Shown here in pieces: positions 1-58,456 of a DNA stretch of 64,000 nucleotides. Under the pieces are notes generated by a model. The model made no database searches and was not told the DNA's origin. It saw nothing but the letters and a program-made list of their open reading frames with translations. Each line of letters starts with the position of its first letter. Position 1 is the stretch's first letter. The stretch is from Candidatus Methylomirabilota bacterium. GTDB taxonomy: Bacteria; Methylomirabilota; Methylomirabilia; Rokubacteriales; CSP1-6. A program made the position numbers and the translations under genes. The stretch covers positions 1 to 64,000 of the forward strand of contig DASTFB010000023.1 in the NCBI GenBank assembly GCA_035709005.1. The letters run 5' to 3'.

Positions 1-173
1 CCGGCGTGTTCGAAGCGTTGATCGCGCCTTTCGTTTTCGTCCACATCGTGCTCGCCCTCCTCGTCGCCGGCGTGATCGGCCTGGCGCGCCGGCGGGCCGC
101 CCGGGCGGCGGGCCTCGATGCAGGTGAACCGCGCGGCGACACCGCCGAGCGGCGGCGGCGTCGGTCCTCCTGA
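1..173 (+). CDS. C-terminal end of a membrane protein (5' end outside window)
   Basis: The third reading frame is open from the first base to a TGA at 171-173 and encodes 56 residues. The fragment has one hydrophobic helix (about residues 8-27 of the fragment) followed by a strongly basic tail ending in several arginines and two serines, as in the last transmembrane segment and cytoplasmic tail of an inner-membrane protein. It lies just upstream of cytochrome oxidase remnants, so a role in the same respiratory operon is possible, but I cannot assign a family from this fragment. Confidence 0.5.
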   Translation, partial: GVFEALIAPFVFVHIVLALLVAGVIGLARRRAARAAGLDAGEPRGDTAERRRRRSS

Positions 174-2523
174 ACCCTACGACGTGGCATCAGCGGGCAG
201 GCAACCGGTGGGGGTGCCTGCCCGGCCTCGGGTCGTAGCGCTCCTCATCGCCCTCAGCGTCCTGACCGGATGCCGGGGCCCCTCGGCGCTGGTCCCGGCC
301 GGTCCCGGCGCGGGTAGCATCGCAGCGCTCACCTGGGTGCTGCTGGCCGTGCTGACGGTGGTCTATCTCGCGGTGATCGGGGCCCTGCTCGTCGCGGTTC
401 GTCGGCGACATCCCGCGCTCGCGGAGCCCATCGGGGCCCGCTCGGACCGCCGGGCGGTCGCCGCGGTGATCGCCGCCGGCGTCGTCGCCCCCGCGCTCAT
501 CCTCGGCGTGATCTTCGTCGTCACGCTACACACGCTGGCCGACGTGTTGCCGGCGCCGACCGCCGACGCGCTGACCGTCGACGTGACTGCGCACCAGTGG
601 TGGTGGGAATTCGACTACGGTGGCGATCCGCCGCTGCGAACCGCCAACGAGCTGCACATCCCGGTCGGGCGCCGGGTCATGCTCCGCCTGCACGCGCGTG
701 ACGTGATCCACAGCCTCTGGGTCCCGGCTCTGCACGGCAAGCTCGACCTCATCCCGGGGACCACGAACGTCACCTGGCTGCAGGCCGACCGCGCTGGCGT
801 CTACCGCGGGCAGTACCTGCTCCCGCTCTTGCTGGGCACGCGCGACCTGCCGTTTCCGCGCCTGACCGCGCTGAGCTACTGGACGTACCTGTTCGGCGGT
901 CTCTTCCTCTACACGAGCTTTCTGGTCGGCGCCGTTCCGGACGGCGGATGGTTCGCGTACCTGCCGCTCACCGGGCCGCGCTACTCGCCGGGCCTGGCCC
1001 TGGATTTCTGGGACATCGGGCTCAGCGTGGCCGAAGTGGCCGCCCTGGGCGCCGCCGCCGAGCTGATCGTCGGAATCTTGCGGATGCGGGCGCCCGGCAT
1101 GCGTCTGGACCGCCTGCCCCTGTTCGCCTGGGCGATGCTGGCCACCGCCATCATGATCGTATTCGCCTTCACACCGCTCATCGTGGGCACCGCGATGCTG
1201 GAGCTCGACCGCAAGGGCCTCACGCGCTTCTTCGATCCCGACGCCGGGGGCAAGCCCTTGCTCTGGCAGCACATCTGCTGGGTGTTCTGCCACCCCGAGG
1301 TCTACATCATGTTCGTCCCCGCCGTCGGCGTGGTCTCCCACGTCGTGCAGGCGTTCGCCCGGCGCCCCATCGTGGGCTACCCCCTCATGGTGCTGGCCAT
1401 CGTGGCCACGGCCATCCGGAGCTTCGGGCTCTGGGTGCACCACATGTTCACGACGGGGCTGTCGCCCGTCGCCATGGGCTTCTTCACGGCGGCCAGCCTC
1501 ATGATCGCGATCCCGAACGGCGTGCAGGTCGTGGGGTGGATCACCACGCTCCTCACGGGCCGCCCGGTGTGGAGCGTCGCACTGCTGTTCGTGGCCGGGT
1601 TCATTGCCATCTTCACGCTGGGTGGGCTCACCGGCGTCATGCTGGCGGTGGTGCCGTTCAACTGGCAGGCCCACGACAGCTACTTCGTCGTCGGCCATTT
1701 CCATTACGTGCTGATCGGGGGCGTGATCTTCCCCGTCTTCGGACGCCTGAGCGAGCGGCTCGGCCATGCACGTCGTGGGATTGCTTGGCATGCCGAGGCG
1801 GGTGTTCACCTATCCGTCCGACCTCGGCTGGGAGCCGTACAACATGGTCACCACCCTCGGGGCCTTCGGCTTCGCCGCCGGCATCGGTCTGTTCCTGGTC
1901 AACGTCGTCTGGAGCCTGAGGACCGGACCGGCCGCCGGGCCCAACCCCTGGAATGCCGACACGCCTCACGGCGATCGAAGCGCTCCCTCGCCGGCTGCGC
2001 CGCCCCCTGGCCGCGCCGCCCCCTGGCCCGCGGCCTCGCGGCCGTGCCGGGCCGGCAGATCGTCGGTCAGCCGGCCGTCGTCTGGGCCGCCCACGCGACC
2101 GTCCTGTGGGCCTGGCACGTCCCGGCCCTGTACGACCGCGCCCTGGCCAGCCCCCTCGTGCACGCGGCCGAGCACGCGACTTTCCTGCTCAGCGCGGCGG
2201 CATTCTGGGCCTTGCTGCTGCACGAGCCGGGACGTTGGCGCCTGGGCGTGGGCGGGGGCCTCGTCTACCTGTTCACCATGGGCATGCAGGGCACGATCCT
2301 GGGAGCCTTGCTCGTCCTGGCCGATCGGCCCTGGTACGCGGCTCACGCTCAGGGCCTGCCGGCGTCCGGGCTTTCTCCGCTGGAAGATCAACACGTGGCC
2401 GGCCTCATCATGTGGATCCCCGCCGGCGTGGTGTATGCGGCAGCGATGCTGGCGCTCGTGGCGACGTGGCTGGCACCGCGGCCACCGGCGCCGGACGTCG
2501 TGGCCGGACGGCCGGCGCCGTGA
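118..2523 (+). pseudogene. Collapsed caa3 cytochrome c oxidase genes: coxB 5' part fused in frame to coxA, then ctaG
   Basis: A single 801-codon open frame is a mosaic of oxidase genes. A likely start is GTG at 214, which gives a lipoprotein leader with lipobox LTGC. Subunit II follows (two membrane helices, VTAHQWWWEFDY, then the cupredoxin start) but stops at about 813, before the CuA cysteines. The next codon is subunit I at about its third helix. HPEVYI, WVHHMF and HFHYVL supply the CuB and heme a3 ligands, but helices I-II with the first heme a histidine are missing. About ten residues seem lost after VFPVFG. At about 1764 a further deletion shifts the frame: the end of subunit I (GLLGMPRRV to PNPWNADT) continues in the second frame to about 1963. 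Subunit III is absent and ctaG resumes in the original frame. The surviving protein stretches are well conserved, so the deletions are recent or are assembly errors. No functional oxidase can come from this ORF. Confidence 0.75.
1990..2523 (+). pseudogene. ctaG: CtaG-like caa3 oxidase assembly protein, N-terminally truncated
   Basis: From about residue 630 of the fused frame the protein matches the CtaG/caa3-assembly family. Visible motifs are LWAWHVPALYD, HAAEHATFLL, a TMGMQGTILGALL helix, WYAAHA and GLSPLEDQHVAGLIMW. At least four hydrophobic helices remain. CtaG helps insert copper into caa3 oxidase subunit I at the inner membrane. The usual N-terminal half is missing and no start codon of its own is evident; the first recognisable residues straddle two frames between about 1966 and 2040. 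It keeps the usual operon position after the oxidase subunits. The call to family is firm; function is doubtful because of the truncation. Confidence 0.65.
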
Positions 2524-2704: not shown

Positions 2705-3688
2705 ATGGACTATCTCCCGCTGGGACACAGCTCACTGAAGGCGTCCCGCCTGGGCCTGGGCCTGATGTCGATGTCCGGCATCTACGGCAAGGGCGACGAC
2801 CAGGAGTCCGTCGACACCATGCGCCACGCCATCCAGCGCGGCATCAACTTCCTGGACAGCTCCGACATGTACGGCTGGGGCCACAACGAGGAACTGTTCG
2901 GCCGTGCGATCAAGGGGCTGCGCAATCAGGTGCTGGTGACTACGAAGTTCGGCCAGGTCCGCAGCGAGGGCGGACGCAACCTGGTCAACGGCCGGCCCGA
3001 GTACGTGCAGCAGGCCTGCGAGGCCAGCCTCAAGCGCCTGGGCGTCGACGTGATCGACCTGTACTCCCAGCACCGGGTGGATCCCAGCGTGCCCATCGAG
3101 GACACCGTCGGCGCCATGGCGCGGCTCATCGAGGAGGGCAAGGTCCGCGCGATCGGGCTGTCGGAGGCGGCGCCGGCCACGATCCGCCGGGCGCACGCCG
3201 TGCACCCGATCAGCACCGTCCAGCTCGAGTACTCGCTGCTCTATCGCCAGGAAGCCGAGCAGACCCTGCCCACCTGCCGCGAGCTCGGCATCACCTTCGT
3301 CGCCTACTCGCCTCTCGGCCGCGGGTTCCTCACCGGGCGGATCCAGAACCTCAGCGACCTCCTCGAGAACGACCGCCGGCGGGACCACCCCCGCTTCCAG
3401 GAAGCCAACTTCGGCCGCAACCGGCAGCTGGTCCAGACCATCGAGCAGATCGCCAAGGGCAAGGGCTGCACGCCGGCCCAGCTCGTGCTGGCGTGGCTCC
3501 TGGCCCAGGGCCCGGACATCATCCCGATCCCGGGCACCAAGCGGAAGGCGCGGGTCGACGAGAACCTGGGCGCGCTCGACGTCAAGCTCGACGCGCAGGA
3601 GGTCGCGCGCATCTCGGCGGCGGTGCCGGTAGGCGCGGCCGCGGGCACGCGCTATCCCGAGCCCCAGATGAAGGGCGTGTACATCTAG
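2705..3688 (+). CDS. Aldo/keto reductase
   Basis: This 327-residue cytosolic NADPH-dependent oxidoreductase has the complete AKR catalytic tetrad: Asp51, Tyr56 (SSDMYG), Lys81 (VTTKFG) and His123 (YSQHRVD). The C-terminal half carries the cofactor-binding segment [19 protein letters not shown] typical of the AKR11/13-type reductases. Length is normal. The start is supported by AAGGAGG eight bases upstream. It heads a same-strand run with a tungsten-type aldehyde oxidoreductase only nine bases downstream, so the two probably act on related aldehydes or ketones in opposite directions. The substrate cannot be told from sequence. Confidence 0.9.
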
Positions 3689-3697
3689 GAGGCCAGC

Positions 3698-5575
3698 ATG
3701 GCGATCACCGGCAGGCTGCTGCACGTCGACCTGGGGACCAGGCAGACGCGGACCGAAGAGATCCCCGAGACACTGATGCGCAAGTATCTCGGCGGCGGCG
3801 CTCTGGCCGCCCACATCCTCCTGCGCGACATGCCCCCCGGCGTCGATCCCCTGGGGCCGGCGAACGTGCTGGTCTTCGTCACCAGCGTCCTCAACGGGCT
3901 CTCCCTCAGCGGCACCAACCGCTACACGGCGGCCGCCAAGTCCCCGCTGACCGGCGGCTATGGCGAATCCGAGGCCGGCGGCTGGTGGGGGCCCGAATTG
4001 CGGGCCGCCGGATGGGACGGCGTCGTCATCCACGGCCAGGCCGACCAACCCGTCTACCTGTGGATCAAGGACGACCGGGTCGAGGTGCGCGACGCCCGGG
4101 CCTATTGGGGCAAGCTCTCCGGCGAGGTCCAGGACGGGCTCGAGCAAGAGCTGGGCGACAAGCGCATCCGCGTGCTGCAGACCGGGATCGCCGGCGAGCG
4201 GGGCGTGCGCTTCGCCGCCATCGTGAACCAACTCAAGCACTTCCACGGCCGCTGCGGGCTGGGCGCGGTGATGGGCGCCAAGCGCCTGAAGGCCGTCGTG
4301 GTCCGGGGCTCCAAGCCGCCCGTGGCGATCGACAGGGAGGGCGCCAAGCGCGCGCTCGTCTGGTTCAAGGAGCACTACGACCGGGCCAAGGACCGCTTCC
4401 ACCAGCTCGGGTCCTCCAGCGCGGTGATGGCGCTCGAGGCCTCCGGCATCCTGCCCACGCGCAACTTCCGCGACGGGTCCTTCGAGCACGCGCGCGCCAT
4501 CAGCGGCCAGACGATGCGCGACACCATCCTGGTCAACCGCGGGACCTGCTACGCCTGCGCGGTGGCCTGCAAGCGCGAGGTCGAGGTGGAGAGCCTCGGC
4601 GTCACCGCCAAGTTCGGCGGCCCCGAGTACGAGACGCTGGCCGCCTCGGGCTCGCTGTGCGGCGTGAGCGATCTCAACGCGCTGGCCCTGGTCAATCAGC
4701 TCTACGCCCAGTACGTGCTGGACTCGATCTCGACGGGAGCCGTCATCGCCTTCGCCATGGAGTGCTTCGAGCACGGCATCATCACCCCGCAGATGACCGG
4801 CGGGATCGACCTCACCTGGGGTAACGCCGAGGGGCTCGTGCAGATCGTGCACGCCATCGGCAAGCGGGAGGGGATCGGCACGCTCCTCGGCGAGGGGGTC
4901 AAGCGCGCGGCGGCCGAGCTGGGCCGAGGCGCGGAGCGCTTCGCCCTTCACGTCAAGGGCCAGGAGCTGCCGATGCACGACCCGCGGGGCAAGAAGGGCC
5001 TGTCCCTGGCCTACGCGCTGTCGCCCACCGGGGCCGACCACATGGAGGCCCCGCACGATCCGCTCTACGCAGGCTTTCACCCCCATGGTCACCCTCTGGG
5101 GCCGCTCGGGCTCATCGAGCCGCTCGATCCGCTCGACCTCGACAGCCGCAAGGTCCGCGCCTTCTTCGAGACGCAGAAGCTGTGGTCCAGCTACAACGCG
5201 GTGGGAATGTGCGACTTCGTGGGCACGCCGCTCAACGGTCTCGAGATGGAGCCCCTGGTCGCCTACATCAACGCCGTCACCGGATGGAACATGAGCCTCT
5301 ATGAGCTGCTCAAGGTGGGCGAGCGGAACAACACGCTGGGGCGGGTCTTCAATTGCCGTGAAGGCTTCACCCCCGCCGACGATCTCTTGCCCCAGCGGAT
5401 GCACGAGGGCATCGGCAACGGTCCGCTCAAGGGCCAGCGCATCGATCCCGGCGAGTTCCTGGCCGCCCGCCGCACCTACTACCAGATGGCGGGCTGGGAT
5501 CCCGAGACGGGGCAGCCGACGGCGGCCAAGCTGGCCGAGCTGGGGCTGGAGGAGCCGTCGTTGGCTCCGGCCTGA
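3698..5575 (+). CDS. Aldehyde:ferredoxin oxidoreductase family (tungstopterin enzyme)
   Basis: The 625-residue protein has the AOR architecture: an N-terminal pterin-binding domain starting with VDLGTRQTRTEEIPE and GGGALAAHIL, then the [4Fe-4S] ligands Cys284, Cys287 and Cys291 (CYACAVAC), with the fourth ligand Cys505 in VGMCDF. The segment MHDPRGKKGLSLAYA with TGADHMEAPHD is the second pterin region. Such enzymes oxidise aldehydes to acids with a tungsten bis-pterin and low-potential electron carriers in the cytoplasm. The ribosome binding site AGGAGG overlaps the stop codon of the preceding gene, indicating tight co-transcription. Seven bases downstream begins the selenocysteine AhpD homologue. 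The exact aldehyde is unknown; benzoyl- or glyceraldehyde-type members cannot be separated here. Confidence 0.88.
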   Translation: MAITGRLLHVDLGTRQTRTEEIPETLMRKYLGGGALAAHILLRDMPPGVDPLGPANVLVFVTSVLNGLSLSGTNRYTAAAKSPLTGGYGESEAGGWWGPELRAAGWDGVVIHGQADQPVYLWIKDDRVEVRDARAYWGKLSGEVQDGLEQELGDKRIRVLQTGIAGERGVRFAAIVNQLKHFHGRCGLGAVMGAKRLKAVVVRGSKPPVAIDREGAKRALVWFKEHYDRAKDRFHQLGSSSAVMALEASGILPTRNFRDGSFEHARAISGQTMRDTILVNRGTCYACAVACKREVEVESLGVTAKFGGPEYETLAASGSLCGVSDLNALALVNQLYAQYVLDSISTGAVIAFAMECFEHGIITPQMTGGIDLTWGNAEGLVQIVHAIGKREGIGTLLGEGVKRAAAELGRGAERFALHVKGQELPMHDPRGKKGLSLAYALSPTGADHMEAPHDPLYAGFHPHGHPLGPLGLIEPLDPLDLDSRKVRAFFETQKLWSSYNAVGMCDFVGTPLNGLEMEPLVAYINAVTGWNMSLYELLKVGERNNTLGRVFNCREGFTPADDLLPQRMHEGIGNGPLKGQRIDPGEFLAARRTYYQMAGWDPETGQPTAAKLAELGLEEPSLAPA

Positions 5576-5582
5576 CGCGGTC

Positions 5583-6152
5583 ATGACCGACGCGCCGATC
5601 AGCCGGTTCCCCATTCCCGACCTGGCGTCGCTGCCGCCCGACGTGCGCGAGGCCATCCAGAACGTCACCACCAAGACCGGCTTCACGCCCAACGTGTTCC
5701 TGGCCTACGCCTGGAAGCCCGAGCATTTCCGGGCGTTCTTCGGCTTCTACGAGACGCTCATGCGCGGGCCGTCGGGCCTGAGCCGCCCCGAGCGCGAGCT
5801 GATCGCGCTGGCGGCCAGCGCCACGAATGACTGCCTCTACTGAACGGTCGCCCACGGAGCGGCGCTCCGTGTGCTGGCCAAGAACCCCTACGTGGCCGAC
5901 CAGGTCACGGCCGACCACCGCCACGCCGAGCTCACCGCCCGCGAGCACGCCCTCGTCGACTTCGCCGTCAAGGTCACCCGGGCGCCGGCGACGATCGACG
6001 CGGACGACCTCGAGCGCCTGCGCGGCGAGGGCTTGACCGACGCGGACATCTGGGACGCCGGCGCCGTCGCCGCCTTCTTCAACCTGTCCAACCGCATGGC
6101 CTCGCTCGCCGACCTGAAACCGAATCGCGACTTCTACGCGATGGGCCGATGA
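5583..6152 (+). CDS. AhpD-like carboxymuconolactone decarboxylase-family peroxidase, selenoprotein (Sec at residue 87)
   Basis: Reading through one TGA at 5841-5843 gives a 189-residue protein homologous along its whole length to AhpD/CMD-type peroxidases. Before the TGA: FTPNVFLAYAWKPEHFRAFF and SRPERELIALAASATNDCLY. After it: TVAHGAALRVLAKNP and FFNLSNRMA. The family motif CxxCxxxHG becomes Cys84-Leu-Tyr-Sec87-x3-His91, so the TGA replaces the reactive cysteine. A perfect SECIS-type hairpin follows (5853-5871). Terminating at the TGA would leave an 86-residue fragment lacking the active site. The product presumably reduces peroxides in the cytoplasm using a dithiol/selenol pair. It follows the AOR gene by seven bases and overlaps the next gene by ATGA, so it belongs to this operon. 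No clear Shine-Dalgarno precedes the ATG, suggesting translational coupling. Confidence 0.85.
5853..5871 (+). promoter_or_regulatory. Bacterial SECIS element of the AhpD-like gene
   Basis: CACGGAG at 5853-5859 pairs perfectly with CTCCGTG at 5865-5871; the inner C-G pair can close too, leaving a GGC loop. The loop begins 16-17 bases after the TGA and has G in its first two positions, meeting the published bacterial SECIS rules (4-16 bp stem, 3-14 nt loop, 16-37 nt spacing). Confidence 0.8.
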
Positions 6153-6964
6153 ACCGGTTACGCCCCGAGGATCTCCAGCTGGTGGTCGATGGCCTGCGAC
6201 TGCACGTGCTGGACTGGGGCGGCGCGGGCCGCACGCCGCTGCTCCTGCTGCACGGCTTCACCGGCCACGCCCACGCTTGGGACACGCTCGCCATCGCCCT
6301 GCAGCCGCACTTCCACGTGTACGCGCTGGACCAGCGGGGCCACGGCGACAGCGACCCCGCCGACACCTACAACGCCATCGTCGCGTTCGGTGACCTTTCC
6401 GGCGTCATCGCCCAGCTCGGTCTGACCTCCCTCGTCGTCGTCGGTCTGTCGATGGGCGGGCGCAACGCCATGTACTTCAGCGCCCAGCGGCCGGAGGTGG
6501 TCCAGCGGCTGGTCGTGGTGGACATCGGCCCCGAGATCAGCACGCGCGCCGCCGCCACGCCGGCCGGCCCGCCCGAGCCCGACGTGTGGGAAAGCATCGA
6601 GCAGGCGGCCCGGCATCTGTATCGCGCCAACCCGCTGCCCGGCATCCATTACTACCGCTGGGTCGTCTCGCACAGCCTGCGGGAGCGGCCCGAGGGCGGG
6701 CTGGTGTGGAAGTGGCATCCGAGCGTCAAGACGCGACGATCGACTCCGGACGTCGACTGGTGGGCCATCGTGCGCGCCATCCAGGCCCCCACGCTGGTGT
6801 TGCGCGGGGAGAGGAGCCCCGTGCTGGACCGCGAGGTTGCCGAGCGCATGGCCAAGGAGCTGCCTCGCGGGAAGTTCGTGGAGATCCCCCGGGCCGTCCA
6901 CACGCTGCACGAGGACAACCCCGAGGCCGTGCTGGCCGTGCTGCGCGAATTCCTCGGATTCTGA
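6149..6964 (+). CDS. Alpha/beta hydrolase
   Basis: The 271-residue protein shows the canonical fold: oxyanion segment LLLHGFTGHAHAWD, the DQRGHGDSD strand, nucleophile elbow GLSMGG with Ser101, an acid in RGERSPVLD and the catalytic histidine in AVHTLHEDNPEAV near the C terminus. It has no signal peptide and should act in the cytoplasm on an ester, lactone or C-C bonded substrate. Its ATG overlaps the stop of the selenoprotein gene (ATGA), so expression depends on the same transcript. Combined with an aldehyde oxidoreductase and an AhpD/CMD protein, a small catabolic operon is plausible, although the substrate is unknown. Confidence 0.88.
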   Translation: MNRLRPEDLQLVVDGLRLHVLDWGGAGRTPLLLLHGFTGHAHAWDTLAIALQPHFHVYALDQRGHGDSDPADTYNAIVAFGDLSGVIAQLGLTSLVVVGLSMGGRNAMYFSAQRPEVVQRLVVVDIGPEISTRAAATPAGPPEPDVWESIEQAARHLYRANPLPGIHYYRWVVSHSLRERPEGGLVWKWHPSVKTRRSTPDVDWWAIVRAIQAPTLVLRGERSPVLDREVAERMAKELPRGKFVEIPRAVHTLHEDNPEAVLAVLREFLGF

Positions 6965-39834: not shown

Positions 39835-39920
39835 GATGCGCGTCCCTCGACTAAAGCTTAACCCCGGTGTTACCCTTGGGCCCGCTGCCGCCGGCGGCGC
39901 GCAGCAGAAGGGAGGGAACT

Positions 39921-40988
39921 ATGAGCGCTCCCCGGACCATGCGGGCCACCGTGTTGACGGCGCCCCACCGCTTCGAGCTGCTGGAGCGGCCGGTGCCCCA
40001 GCCGGGCCCGGAAGATGTGCTGGTGCGCGTGCGCGCCTGCGGCGTCTGAGGCACCGACCTGAAAATCATCCACCAGGGCATGCCCCACATGCCCCCGTAC
40101 GGCGAGTTCATCTTCGGCCACGAGTACGCGGGAGAGGTGGTGGCGCTCGGCAGCACGGTGGACGAGTTTCGGGTGGGCGACCGGGTGGTCGTCGAGGCGC
40201 ACATGGGGTGCCGGCGGTGCGAGAACTGCATCCGCGGCCTGTACACGGCGTGCCTGAATTCCGGCAACATGAAGCGCGGGCACCGGGCCAACGGGTTCAC
40301 CACCAATGGCGGGCTGGCCGAGTACGCCCTGAACCACGTCAACACGCTCTACCGCATCCCCGACGGGATCTCCTACGAGGAGGCCGTGGTCGTGATGACG
40401 GCCGGCAGCCCCCTCTACGGGCTCGAGCGGGCCGGCGGCTACTTCGCGGGGGAGACGGTCGCGGTGCTGGGACCGGGCCCGATCGGGTTGATGGCGTTGC
40501 AGCTCGTCAAGGCCCTGGGTGCCGTGCGCGTCGTCCTCACGGGCACGCGGCCGTCGCGCCTGGCCCTCGGCAAGGAGCTGGGCGCCGACGTGATCGTGAA
40601 CAGCCGTGAGCAGGACCCGGTGGCGGCGGTACGCGAGGCCACCAACGGCCGCGGCGCCGACGTCAGCATCGAGTGCGCAGGCGGCGACGACACGTTCGAC
40701 CAGGCCATCAAGATGACCAAGCCCGGCGGCCGGGTGATCCTGGTCGCGTACTATCACGGCCCCGTCACCGCCGACGTGTCGGATGCCGTGCGCCGTAACT
40801 TGACGATCTACACGGAGCGCGGCGAGGGCGGCACGAGCGTGGGGCGGGCCCTGGCCTTGCTGGCGGCCGGCCGGATCCGCGCCAAGCCTCTGGTCAGCCA
40901 GATTTTCCCCCTCACCGACGTCCACCGGGGCTTCGAGGTGCTGGAAAAGCGCATCGGCGATCCCATCAAGGTGATCTTCCACCCATGA
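39921..40988 (+). CDS. Zinc-dependent medium-chain alcohol dehydrogenase, candidate selenoprotein (Sec43 at catalytic zinc ligand)
   Basis: Readthrough of a single TGA at 40047-40049 gives a 355-residue MDR dehydrogenase. The upstream half ends RVRACGV and the downstream half begins GTDLKIIHQG, so the family motif CGVCGTD has Sec for its second cysteine, the first ligand of the catalytic zinc. Other key residues are intact: His67-Glu68 in FGHEYAG, structural-zinc Cys97, Cys100, Cys103 and Cys111 (GCRRCENCIRGLYTAC), and the Rossmann motif VAVLGPGPIGLMAL. GGAGGG precedes the ATG at 39921. A plausible SECIS hairpin follows at 40076-40094. Without readthrough only 42 residues would be made, and the body would have no good start. 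The gene lies 10 bases before a TTT transporter operon. Its substrate is probably a polyol or alcohol taken up nearby; a sequencing error at one codon is the alternative. Confidence 0.75.
40076..40094 (+). promoter_or_regulatory. Candidate SECIS element of the alcohol dehydrogenase gene
   Basis: GGGCAT (40076-40081) pairs with ATGCCC (40089-40094) around a seven-base loop GCCCCAC that starts with G, 32 bases after the TGA. This fits the bacterial SECIS rules but is a weaker hairpin than those of the other two selenoprotein genes. Confidence 0.5.
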
Positions 40989-57563: not shown

Positions 57564-57889
57564 GGTGGTCTCCTTTCTCAGAGGGTTTCCGAATGGGGCC
57601 GTTTACCAGCCATCGACTGGCAGAGAGCATCCTAATCAGAGGGATGTGAGTGTACCAGCCGGGACAGTGGCAGGGTGTTGAAATCACAGCCGCGCTCGGC
57701 AGCCCCATGGGCGTGGCCGCAGCTTGACCCGCTTTCCCCGAAACAGTATCGTGGCCGTCGTCCATCGCGGCAGCCTCATGCGTAGGGGCGAGGGCGGAAA
57801 CCACGCTATCACCCCTCGAGTTCATAGTGTTGACCTGCAGCTTGTCCCAGCAGTCACGACGGAACGATCCGGAGCGATGAGGGGGACCG
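57564..57889. other. Divergent intergenic region between SELENBP1 and Sec-peroxiredoxin genes
   Basis: These 326 bases have no convincing gene; the open frames across them have no family features. Toward the left end is a TAGGAT on the minus strand (complement of 57629-57634) that could be a -10 box for the SELENBP1 gene, and a TTGACC near 57830 may be a -35 box facing the peroxiredoxin. Both assignments are weak. GC content is slightly lower than in the genes on either side. Confidence 0.5.
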
Positions 57890-58456
57890 ATGAGTCCAAG
57901 GCTGGTACGGACGTCGACGGTCGTTGCCGTGATGAGCGCCGTCCTTTTCAGCGTCGGAAGCGCGATCAGCCCCGGGCCGGCGGTGGCGGAGCCCGGGGTC
58001 GGCGACCGGGCGCCCGATTTCACGCTCCCGGCGACAACGGGAGACAAGATCAGCTTGAGCCAGTTCCGTGGCAAGAAGATCGTCCTGCTGGAGTTCTACG
58101 GCGCCGACTTCAATCCTGTGTGAGCGGCAAACTTGTCGGCCAGGAAGGCCGACTACGGCAAATTCGAAGCGCTGAACGTCCAGATCCTGGGGATCAGCTC
58201 CAACAACCCATTCTCGCAGAAAACGTTCGCCGACTCGCTCCAGCTTCCCTACCCGCTGCTGAGCGACTTTCCGCATCTCACCACGATCAAGAGCTACGCG
58301 GGCCTCAACAAGCAATGGTCGAGCACGACCGCGCAGCGCGCCTTCTTCCTCATCGACAAGAACGGCGTCATCCGAGGCCGATGGCTCGGCACGGTCACGG
58401 ACGTATTCCCGACCGAGGCGATTCTGGAAACGGCGCGGGCAGTCGCCAGGGAGTGA
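57890..58456 (+). CDS. Exported AhpC/TSA-family peroxiredoxin, selenoprotein (Sec78)
   Basis: Readthrough of TGA 58121-58123 gives a 188-residue peroxiredoxin. It has a signal peptide ([20 protein letters not shown], cut near AVA-EPG), then [35 protein letters not shown], Sec78, [20 protein letters not shown] and [20 protein letters not shown], with [16 protein letters not shown] near the end. Sec78 falls on the peroxidatic cysteine. The rest of the protein has no cysteine, so it is a one-Sec enzyme needing an external reductant. A textbook SECIS follows. A stop at the TGA would leave a 77-residue signal-bearing fragment without catalytic strands. The product is predicted to act outside the cytoplasm, which is unusual for a selenoprotein. 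Confidence 0.88.
58135..58153 (+). promoter_or_regulatory. Bacterial SECIS element of the peroxiredoxin gene
   Basis: GTCGGCC (58135-58141) pairs perfectly with GGCCGAC (58147-58153) around the loop AGGAA. The loop starts 18 bases after the TGA and has G at its second and third positions, close to the E. coli fdhF element in form. Confidence 0.85.

Follow-up and report, generated by a model that had tools for sequence, protein, structure and literature searches.

AhpD-like proteins of the NCBIfam family TIGR01926 that carry a CxxU motif are listed as a predicted selenoprotein family in Table 1 of a 2026 review (PMC13188914), and the earliest report of AhpD-like selenoproteins came from the Sargasso Sea survey (PMC1088965). 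Solved cysteine proteins of TIGR01926 include 2PRR (Ralstonia eutropha), 3C1L, 2PFX, 2OYO and 6K40, whose database entries call them uncharacterised peroxidase-related proteins, putative antioxidant proteins or, for 6K40, AhpD. A further model, NF041238, describes an AhpD-related selenoprotein with a CFYUT motif. The AhpD proton relay is known from two cysteine enzymes: in PA0269 of Pseudomonas aeruginosa, which reduces H2O2 weakly, it is formed by Glu36-Cys48-Tyr50-Cys51-His55, and in Mycobacterium tuberculosis AhpD by Glu118, Cys130, His132, Cys133 and His137 (PMC3141380).

The gene described here lies in a stretch of 64,000 nucleotides (the window) from a draft genome of Candidatus Methylomirabilota bacterium, an uncultured member of the Rokubacteria. 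An earlier note on this DNA had proposed a genuine selenoprotein of a known AhpD-like kind, and the two sources cited above bear out that such proteins are known. As the CxxU form of TIGR01926 is already catalogued, the gene is a new example of a known selenoprotein family, with which it shares, in a comparison made through the table entry, the NCBIfam model, the CxxU motif, selenocysteine (Sec) at the second position and a SECIS element just downstream. What it adds is the Rokubacteria lineage and a gene group, with an aldo/keto reductase (AKR), an aldehyde:ferredoxin oxidoreductase (AOR) and a hydrolase, that is not seen in the relatives examined. A search of the literature on Rokubacteria or Methylomirabilota selenoproteins found nothing on this AhpD-like gene. 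Taken together, the in-frame UGA in an AhpD-like CxxC motif, a conserved and covarying SECIS hairpin and a full set of Sec machinery genes indicate a genuine selenoprotein gene, at a probability of about 0.96. Coordinates are collected in Table 1.

Table 1. Features of the AhpD-like locus and of the Sec machinery; positions without a contig are those of the window, and C64, C87 and C94 are contigs of the source genome
Feature	Position	Strand	Remarks
AKR	2705..3688	+	PF00248; first in co-directional group; 9 nt to AOR
AOR (tungsten enzyme family)	3698..5575	+	PF02730 and PF01314; 7 nt to AhpD-like gene
AhpD-like selenoprotein gene (predicted)	5583..6152	+	TIGR01926, CMD fold; 189 aa, Sec at residue 87
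Start ATG of AhpD-like gene	5583-5585	+
Glu72 codon	5796..5798	+	first residue of predicted AhpD-type proton relay (E72, C84, Y86, U87, H91)
Cys84 codon	5832..5834	+	putative resolving (partner) thiol for U87; conserved in all 17 aligned homologues
In-frame TGA, predicted to be read as Sec (U87)	5841..5843	+	second position of catalytic CxxC
Bacterial SECIS hairpin (predicted)	5853..5871	+	stem 5853-5860 / 5864-5871; apical loop GGC 5861-5863
Stop TGA of AhpD-like gene	6150-6152	+
Alpha/beta hydrolase	6149..6964	+	PF00561/PF12697; ATG overlaps AhpD-like stop by 4 nt (ATGA)
tRNA-Sec (selC)	C64:6481-6574		68.9 bits; ARAGORN anticodon TCA
selA	C64:7883-9235		596 bits
selB	C94:100-1983		361 bits
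selD (L052)	C87:189561-190505		336 bits
Second tRNA-Sec-like gene, other genomes of the class	G026:C3, G034:C49, G035:C18, G092:C127, G094:C243		52-58 bits

Reading frame and family

The internal TGA is the sole stop within the AhpD-like frame, and, as the earlier note had it, falls at the second cysteine of the CxxC motif (NDCLY-U-TVAHGAALRV, that is N82-D-C84-L-Y86-U87-T-V-A-H91-G). Protein-level similarity to homologues continues on both sides of it. With Cys placed at U87, the read-through product scores 199.4 bits with TIGR01926 ("peroxidase-related enzyme"; cut-off 81.8), its residues 7-181 covering positions 1-176 of the 178 in the model. Both the score and the arrangement of the site, CxxU preceded by Glu at 12 residues and followed by His at 4, place it in this family. 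It also exceeds the cut-off for the CMD domain PF02627. No dedicated AhpD equivalog model was matched, the hits being to TIGR01926, to the general domain TIGR00778 and to other subfamilies, and the protein is therefore named AhpD-like rather than AhpD. The solved TIGR01926 proteins align with it over nearly the whole chain and, in two of the alignments, show a CxYC site followed by AHG, with Cys where the window protein has Sec. Although NF041238 likewise has a CxxUT motif within an AhpD-like domain, the protein reaches 54.5 bits against a cut-off of 175 for that model of 357 positions and belongs to a different subfamily. Across the window, a TGA bridges two same-frame stretches of coding-like GC3 in four places only, of which this is one and another resembles an ordinary gene end.

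The SECIS hairpin

Downstream of the TGA, CACGGAGC-GGC-GCTCCGTG forms a perfect 8-bp stem closed by a 3-nt loop, and folding of 48 nt around it gives -22.7 kcal/mol (z = -3.3). Published criteria for bacterial SECIS elements are a loop of 3-9 nt, a stem of 4-16 bp, G in the first two loop positions, a loop 16-37 nt from the UGA and an energy of <= -7.5 kcal/mol (PMC13188914); the hairpin falls within all of these limits. The earlier note had placed a hairpin 16-17 bases after the TGA. The perfect stem and the loop G stand, but 17 nt is the distance to the start of the apical loop, and the stem begins 9 nt past the UGA. In the window, which has a GC content of 71%, perfect stems of at least 8 bp that obey the spacing and loop-G rules follow 8 of the 1373 TGA trinucleotides on both strands (0.6%).

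Conservation among orthologues

Eleven of 95 genomes of the class, the source genome included, contain a full-length close orthologue. The codon at the U87 position is TGA in eight and TGC in three; the UGA thus sits at a redox cysteine position that homologues keep as UGA or as a Cys codon, which is the pattern of a bacterial selenoprotein. The seven other TGA genomes belong to three other genera (g13, g14, g23) and their proteins are 62-67% identical to that of the window, while the three TGC orthologues (L034-L036) are single uninterrupted proteins from one genus, g7. Homologues fetched from Pseudomonadota and Actinomycetota (50-53% identical) all have TGC, and plasmid homologues are all below 60% identity. 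A tree of 23 proteins requires at least two changes between the Sec and Cys states, the forks around the window sequence being unresolved. Genus g7 is of the same family as the source bacterium, and tRNA-Sec is kept in two of its three genomes with the Cys form.

The hairpin is identical letter for letter in all eight TGA orthologues. Between the window gene and each of the others there are 25-38 third-position changes per gene half, as against a single one in the seven codons of the hairpin. The stem depends on uncommon codons, GGA accounting for 8 of 140 Gly codons and CGT for 3 of 104 CGN codons in the four genes of the group; the TGC orthologues have GGC and CGC instead and no such stem. 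In distant TGA homologues (33-41% identical) a stem is present at the same place and is retained by paired changes, one pair having gone from C-G to A-U in three of them and another from G-C to C-G in one. In the stem alignment 94.2% of cells are paired, and the covariation score is 0.151 against 0.043 +/- 0.022 for shuffled alignments (0/500), a comparison drawn from few distant sequences with four cells changed on both sides. Sliding the stem partner by 1-3 columns abolishes the signal. Since the hairpin is kept in TGA genes, lost in TGC genes and rebuilt in distant relatives, the comparative sequence evidence indicates that selection acts on an RNA structure linked to the TGA state.

Selenocysteine machinery

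The source genome is a draft of 4.59 Mb in 134 contigs, 95% complete with an estimated contamination of 3.6%. It contains tRNA-Sec, selA, selB and selD, each above its own cut-off and on contigs tied to the window solely by membership of the same assembly. Contig C64 terminates 15 nt past the selA match and C94 starts 99 nt ahead of the selB match; as both genes are at contig ends, they are probably one selA-selB locus that was split there. The selD gene is itself interrupted in frame by a TGA (YASCAG-U-ASKM), with a palindromic sequence, CTCCTGGAGATCTCCAGGAG, after it. Sec-containing SelD proteins are known, and this gene resembles them. Across the class, 79 of 95 genomes have a tRNA-Sec that passes the filter. 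Of the eight TGA genomes, three (G076, G077 and G088) yielded none that passed; two of these are just 77-81% complete and the third, G088, 94%. Several genomes of the class have a second, divergent tRNA-Sec-like gene besides the main one, which scores 65-76 bits.

Three of the checks proposed in the earlier note, namely a search for the sel genes, an alignment of homologues at the TGA codon and a comparison with the bacterial SECIS model, have thus each come out on the side of a selenoprotein, as has the confinement of the conserved, covarying hairpin to TGA genes.

Active site and proposed mechanism

The columns of E72, C84, Y86, C/U87 and H91 are invariant across 17 aligned homologues and their spacing is exactly that of PA0269, so that U87 would replace the second catalytic cysteine, with C84 as its partner. 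The relay of M. tuberculosis AhpD (with His where PA0269 has Tyr) is spaced in the same way, although the chain topology of that enzyme is different (PMC3141380).

During translation, SelB with Sec-tRNA-Sec would bind the hairpin and decode the UGA as Sec, as in the known pathway, giving a full-length helical protein of 189 residues. By analogy with the family, the catalytic pair may be activated by E72 and H91 together with Y86 and water; the U87 selenolate would then attack peroxide, or the disulfide of a partner peroxiredoxin, form a selenenyl-sulfide with C84 and be re-reduced by a cellular thiol donor. Going by selenoenzymes in general, Sec at this site would be expected to make the residue more nucleophilic and to help protect it from irreversible over-oxidation. 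The most likely function, as predicted from the active site, is that of a Sec-dependent thiol peroxidase/adaptor with an AhpD proton relay, the term 'peroxidase' being taken from the family and the active-site residues. The physiological role is probably in peroxide/thiol redox defence.

Gene neighbourhood and alternative readings

The head-to-tail order of the AKR, AOR, AhpD-like and hydrolase genes, with narrow gaps and an overlap (Table 1), makes co-transcription likely. The operon arrangement described in the earlier note is tight and real in this genome, but it is absent from ten related loci. When the AKR, AOR, hydrolase and oxidase proteins were searched against the neighbouring genes, no AKR or AOR stood beside the gene in any of the 10 orthologous loci of the class, nor beside the Cys homologues of other phyla; the sole matches were distant hydrolases in a different orientation, and a conserved operon was rejected. 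As the arrangement is absent at orthologous loci, it carries little functional information. Upstream, a cytochrome oxidase frame (118-2523, forward strand) joins a COX2 domain that lacks its end to a COX1 domain that lacks about 70 N-terminal residues, then departs from the COX1 frame and runs on as CtaG. The pattern suggests a deletion combined with a frameshift, arising from gene decay or misassembly.

That oxidase frame, and the fragmentation of the draft, might suggest that the TGA is itself a sequencing or assembly error for TGC or TGT, or a nonsense mutation in a decaying pseudogene, since a single change from TGC to TGA would mimic the picture in one genome. The same TGA nevertheless recurs in seven other genomes of three genera, and the protein downstream of it and the rare-codon hairpin are intact; recurrence across multiple genomes excludes an error or a decayed gene, and we attach next to no probability to either. 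It is just as improbable that the locus encodes two genes or a truncated protein, with a stop at 5843 and the C-terminal half restarting at GTG 5871. Open reading frames 5301-5843 and 5871-6152 do exist, and a gene caller would give both, splitting or truncating the gene as the earlier note anticipated; however, such a split would put Cys84 on one fragment and leave His91 off both, the proteins of the Cys orthologues are uninterrupted, and the conserved hairpin would be left without a purpose.

Given a selenoprotein, the enzyme might still be something other than a free-standing peroxidase. It might act as a thiol-disulfide adaptor, or else convert a specific substrate on behalf of the AKR, AOR and hydrolase in aldehyde or lactone metabolism. 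The four closely packed co-directional genes point that way, as do the role of M. tuberculosis AhpD as an adaptor of AhpC and the weak activity of PA0269 (PMC3141380), yet the AKR/AOR pairing is restricted to this locus among those compared and could be a coincidence. We consider this a tentative possibility, somewhat unlikely on balance. A narrower proposal, that the Sec peroxidase works in functional association with the tungsten-type AOR and the AKR, for example by clearing peroxides made by AOR or protecting this oxygen-sensitive enzyme, appears decidedly improbable. Aerobic respiration genes are also present in the host bacterium. If true, such a link would amount to a previously undescribed aldehyde module combining selenium and tungsten.

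Further selenoprotein candidates

The scan for TGA codons bridging coding-like frames gave two other candidates in the window. A zinc-type medium-chain (threonine/alcohol-type) dehydrogenase (39855-40988, forward strand) has TGA 40047-40049 at the expected catalytic Zn-ligand cysteine (VRACGV-U-GTDLK). Among the related loci read from other genomes of the same taxonomic family (77-82% identical), the codon is TGA at seven (L068, L069, L071-L075) and TGC at one (L070), and those at 53% identity have TGC. Downstream, the hairpin GGCAT...ATGCC is a weak one that may simply result from conservation of the GMPxMP codons. A selenoprotein family of zinc-type dehydrogenases is absent from the table of the 2026 review (PMC13188914) and from the literature searched; the gene may represent an unlisted selenoprotein family, as a candidate, and its TGA is probably the most novel feature of the window. 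An AhpC/TSA-type peroxiredoxin (57881-58456, forward strand) has TGA 58121-58123 at the expected peroxidatic position (GADFNPV-U-AANL), followed downstream by a 7-bp hairpin (GTCGGCC...GGCCGAC), and is probably one more selenoprotein of an already known kind.

Elsewhere in the source genome, a second AhpD-like gene (L018; G000:C21:7726-7929, reverse strand) contains TGA within CRY-U-LQVH; its hairpin, ACTTCTGC-GGT-GCAGAAGT, pairs perfectly over 8 bp, and the gene is another probable selenoprotein. At locus L019, a TGA lies within CHY-U-TEHN.

Implications

The AhpD-like gene is a well-supported case of an enzyme that standard gene callers would cut precisely at its catalytic residue. Together, the Cys gene of genus g7 and the Sec gene form a natural Sec/Cys pair for enzyme comparison. 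For one Methylomirabilota genome, 63 selenoprotein genes are predicted according to the 2026 review (PMC13188914), and the present gene adds to the view of Methylomirabilota/Rokubacteria as users of selenium.
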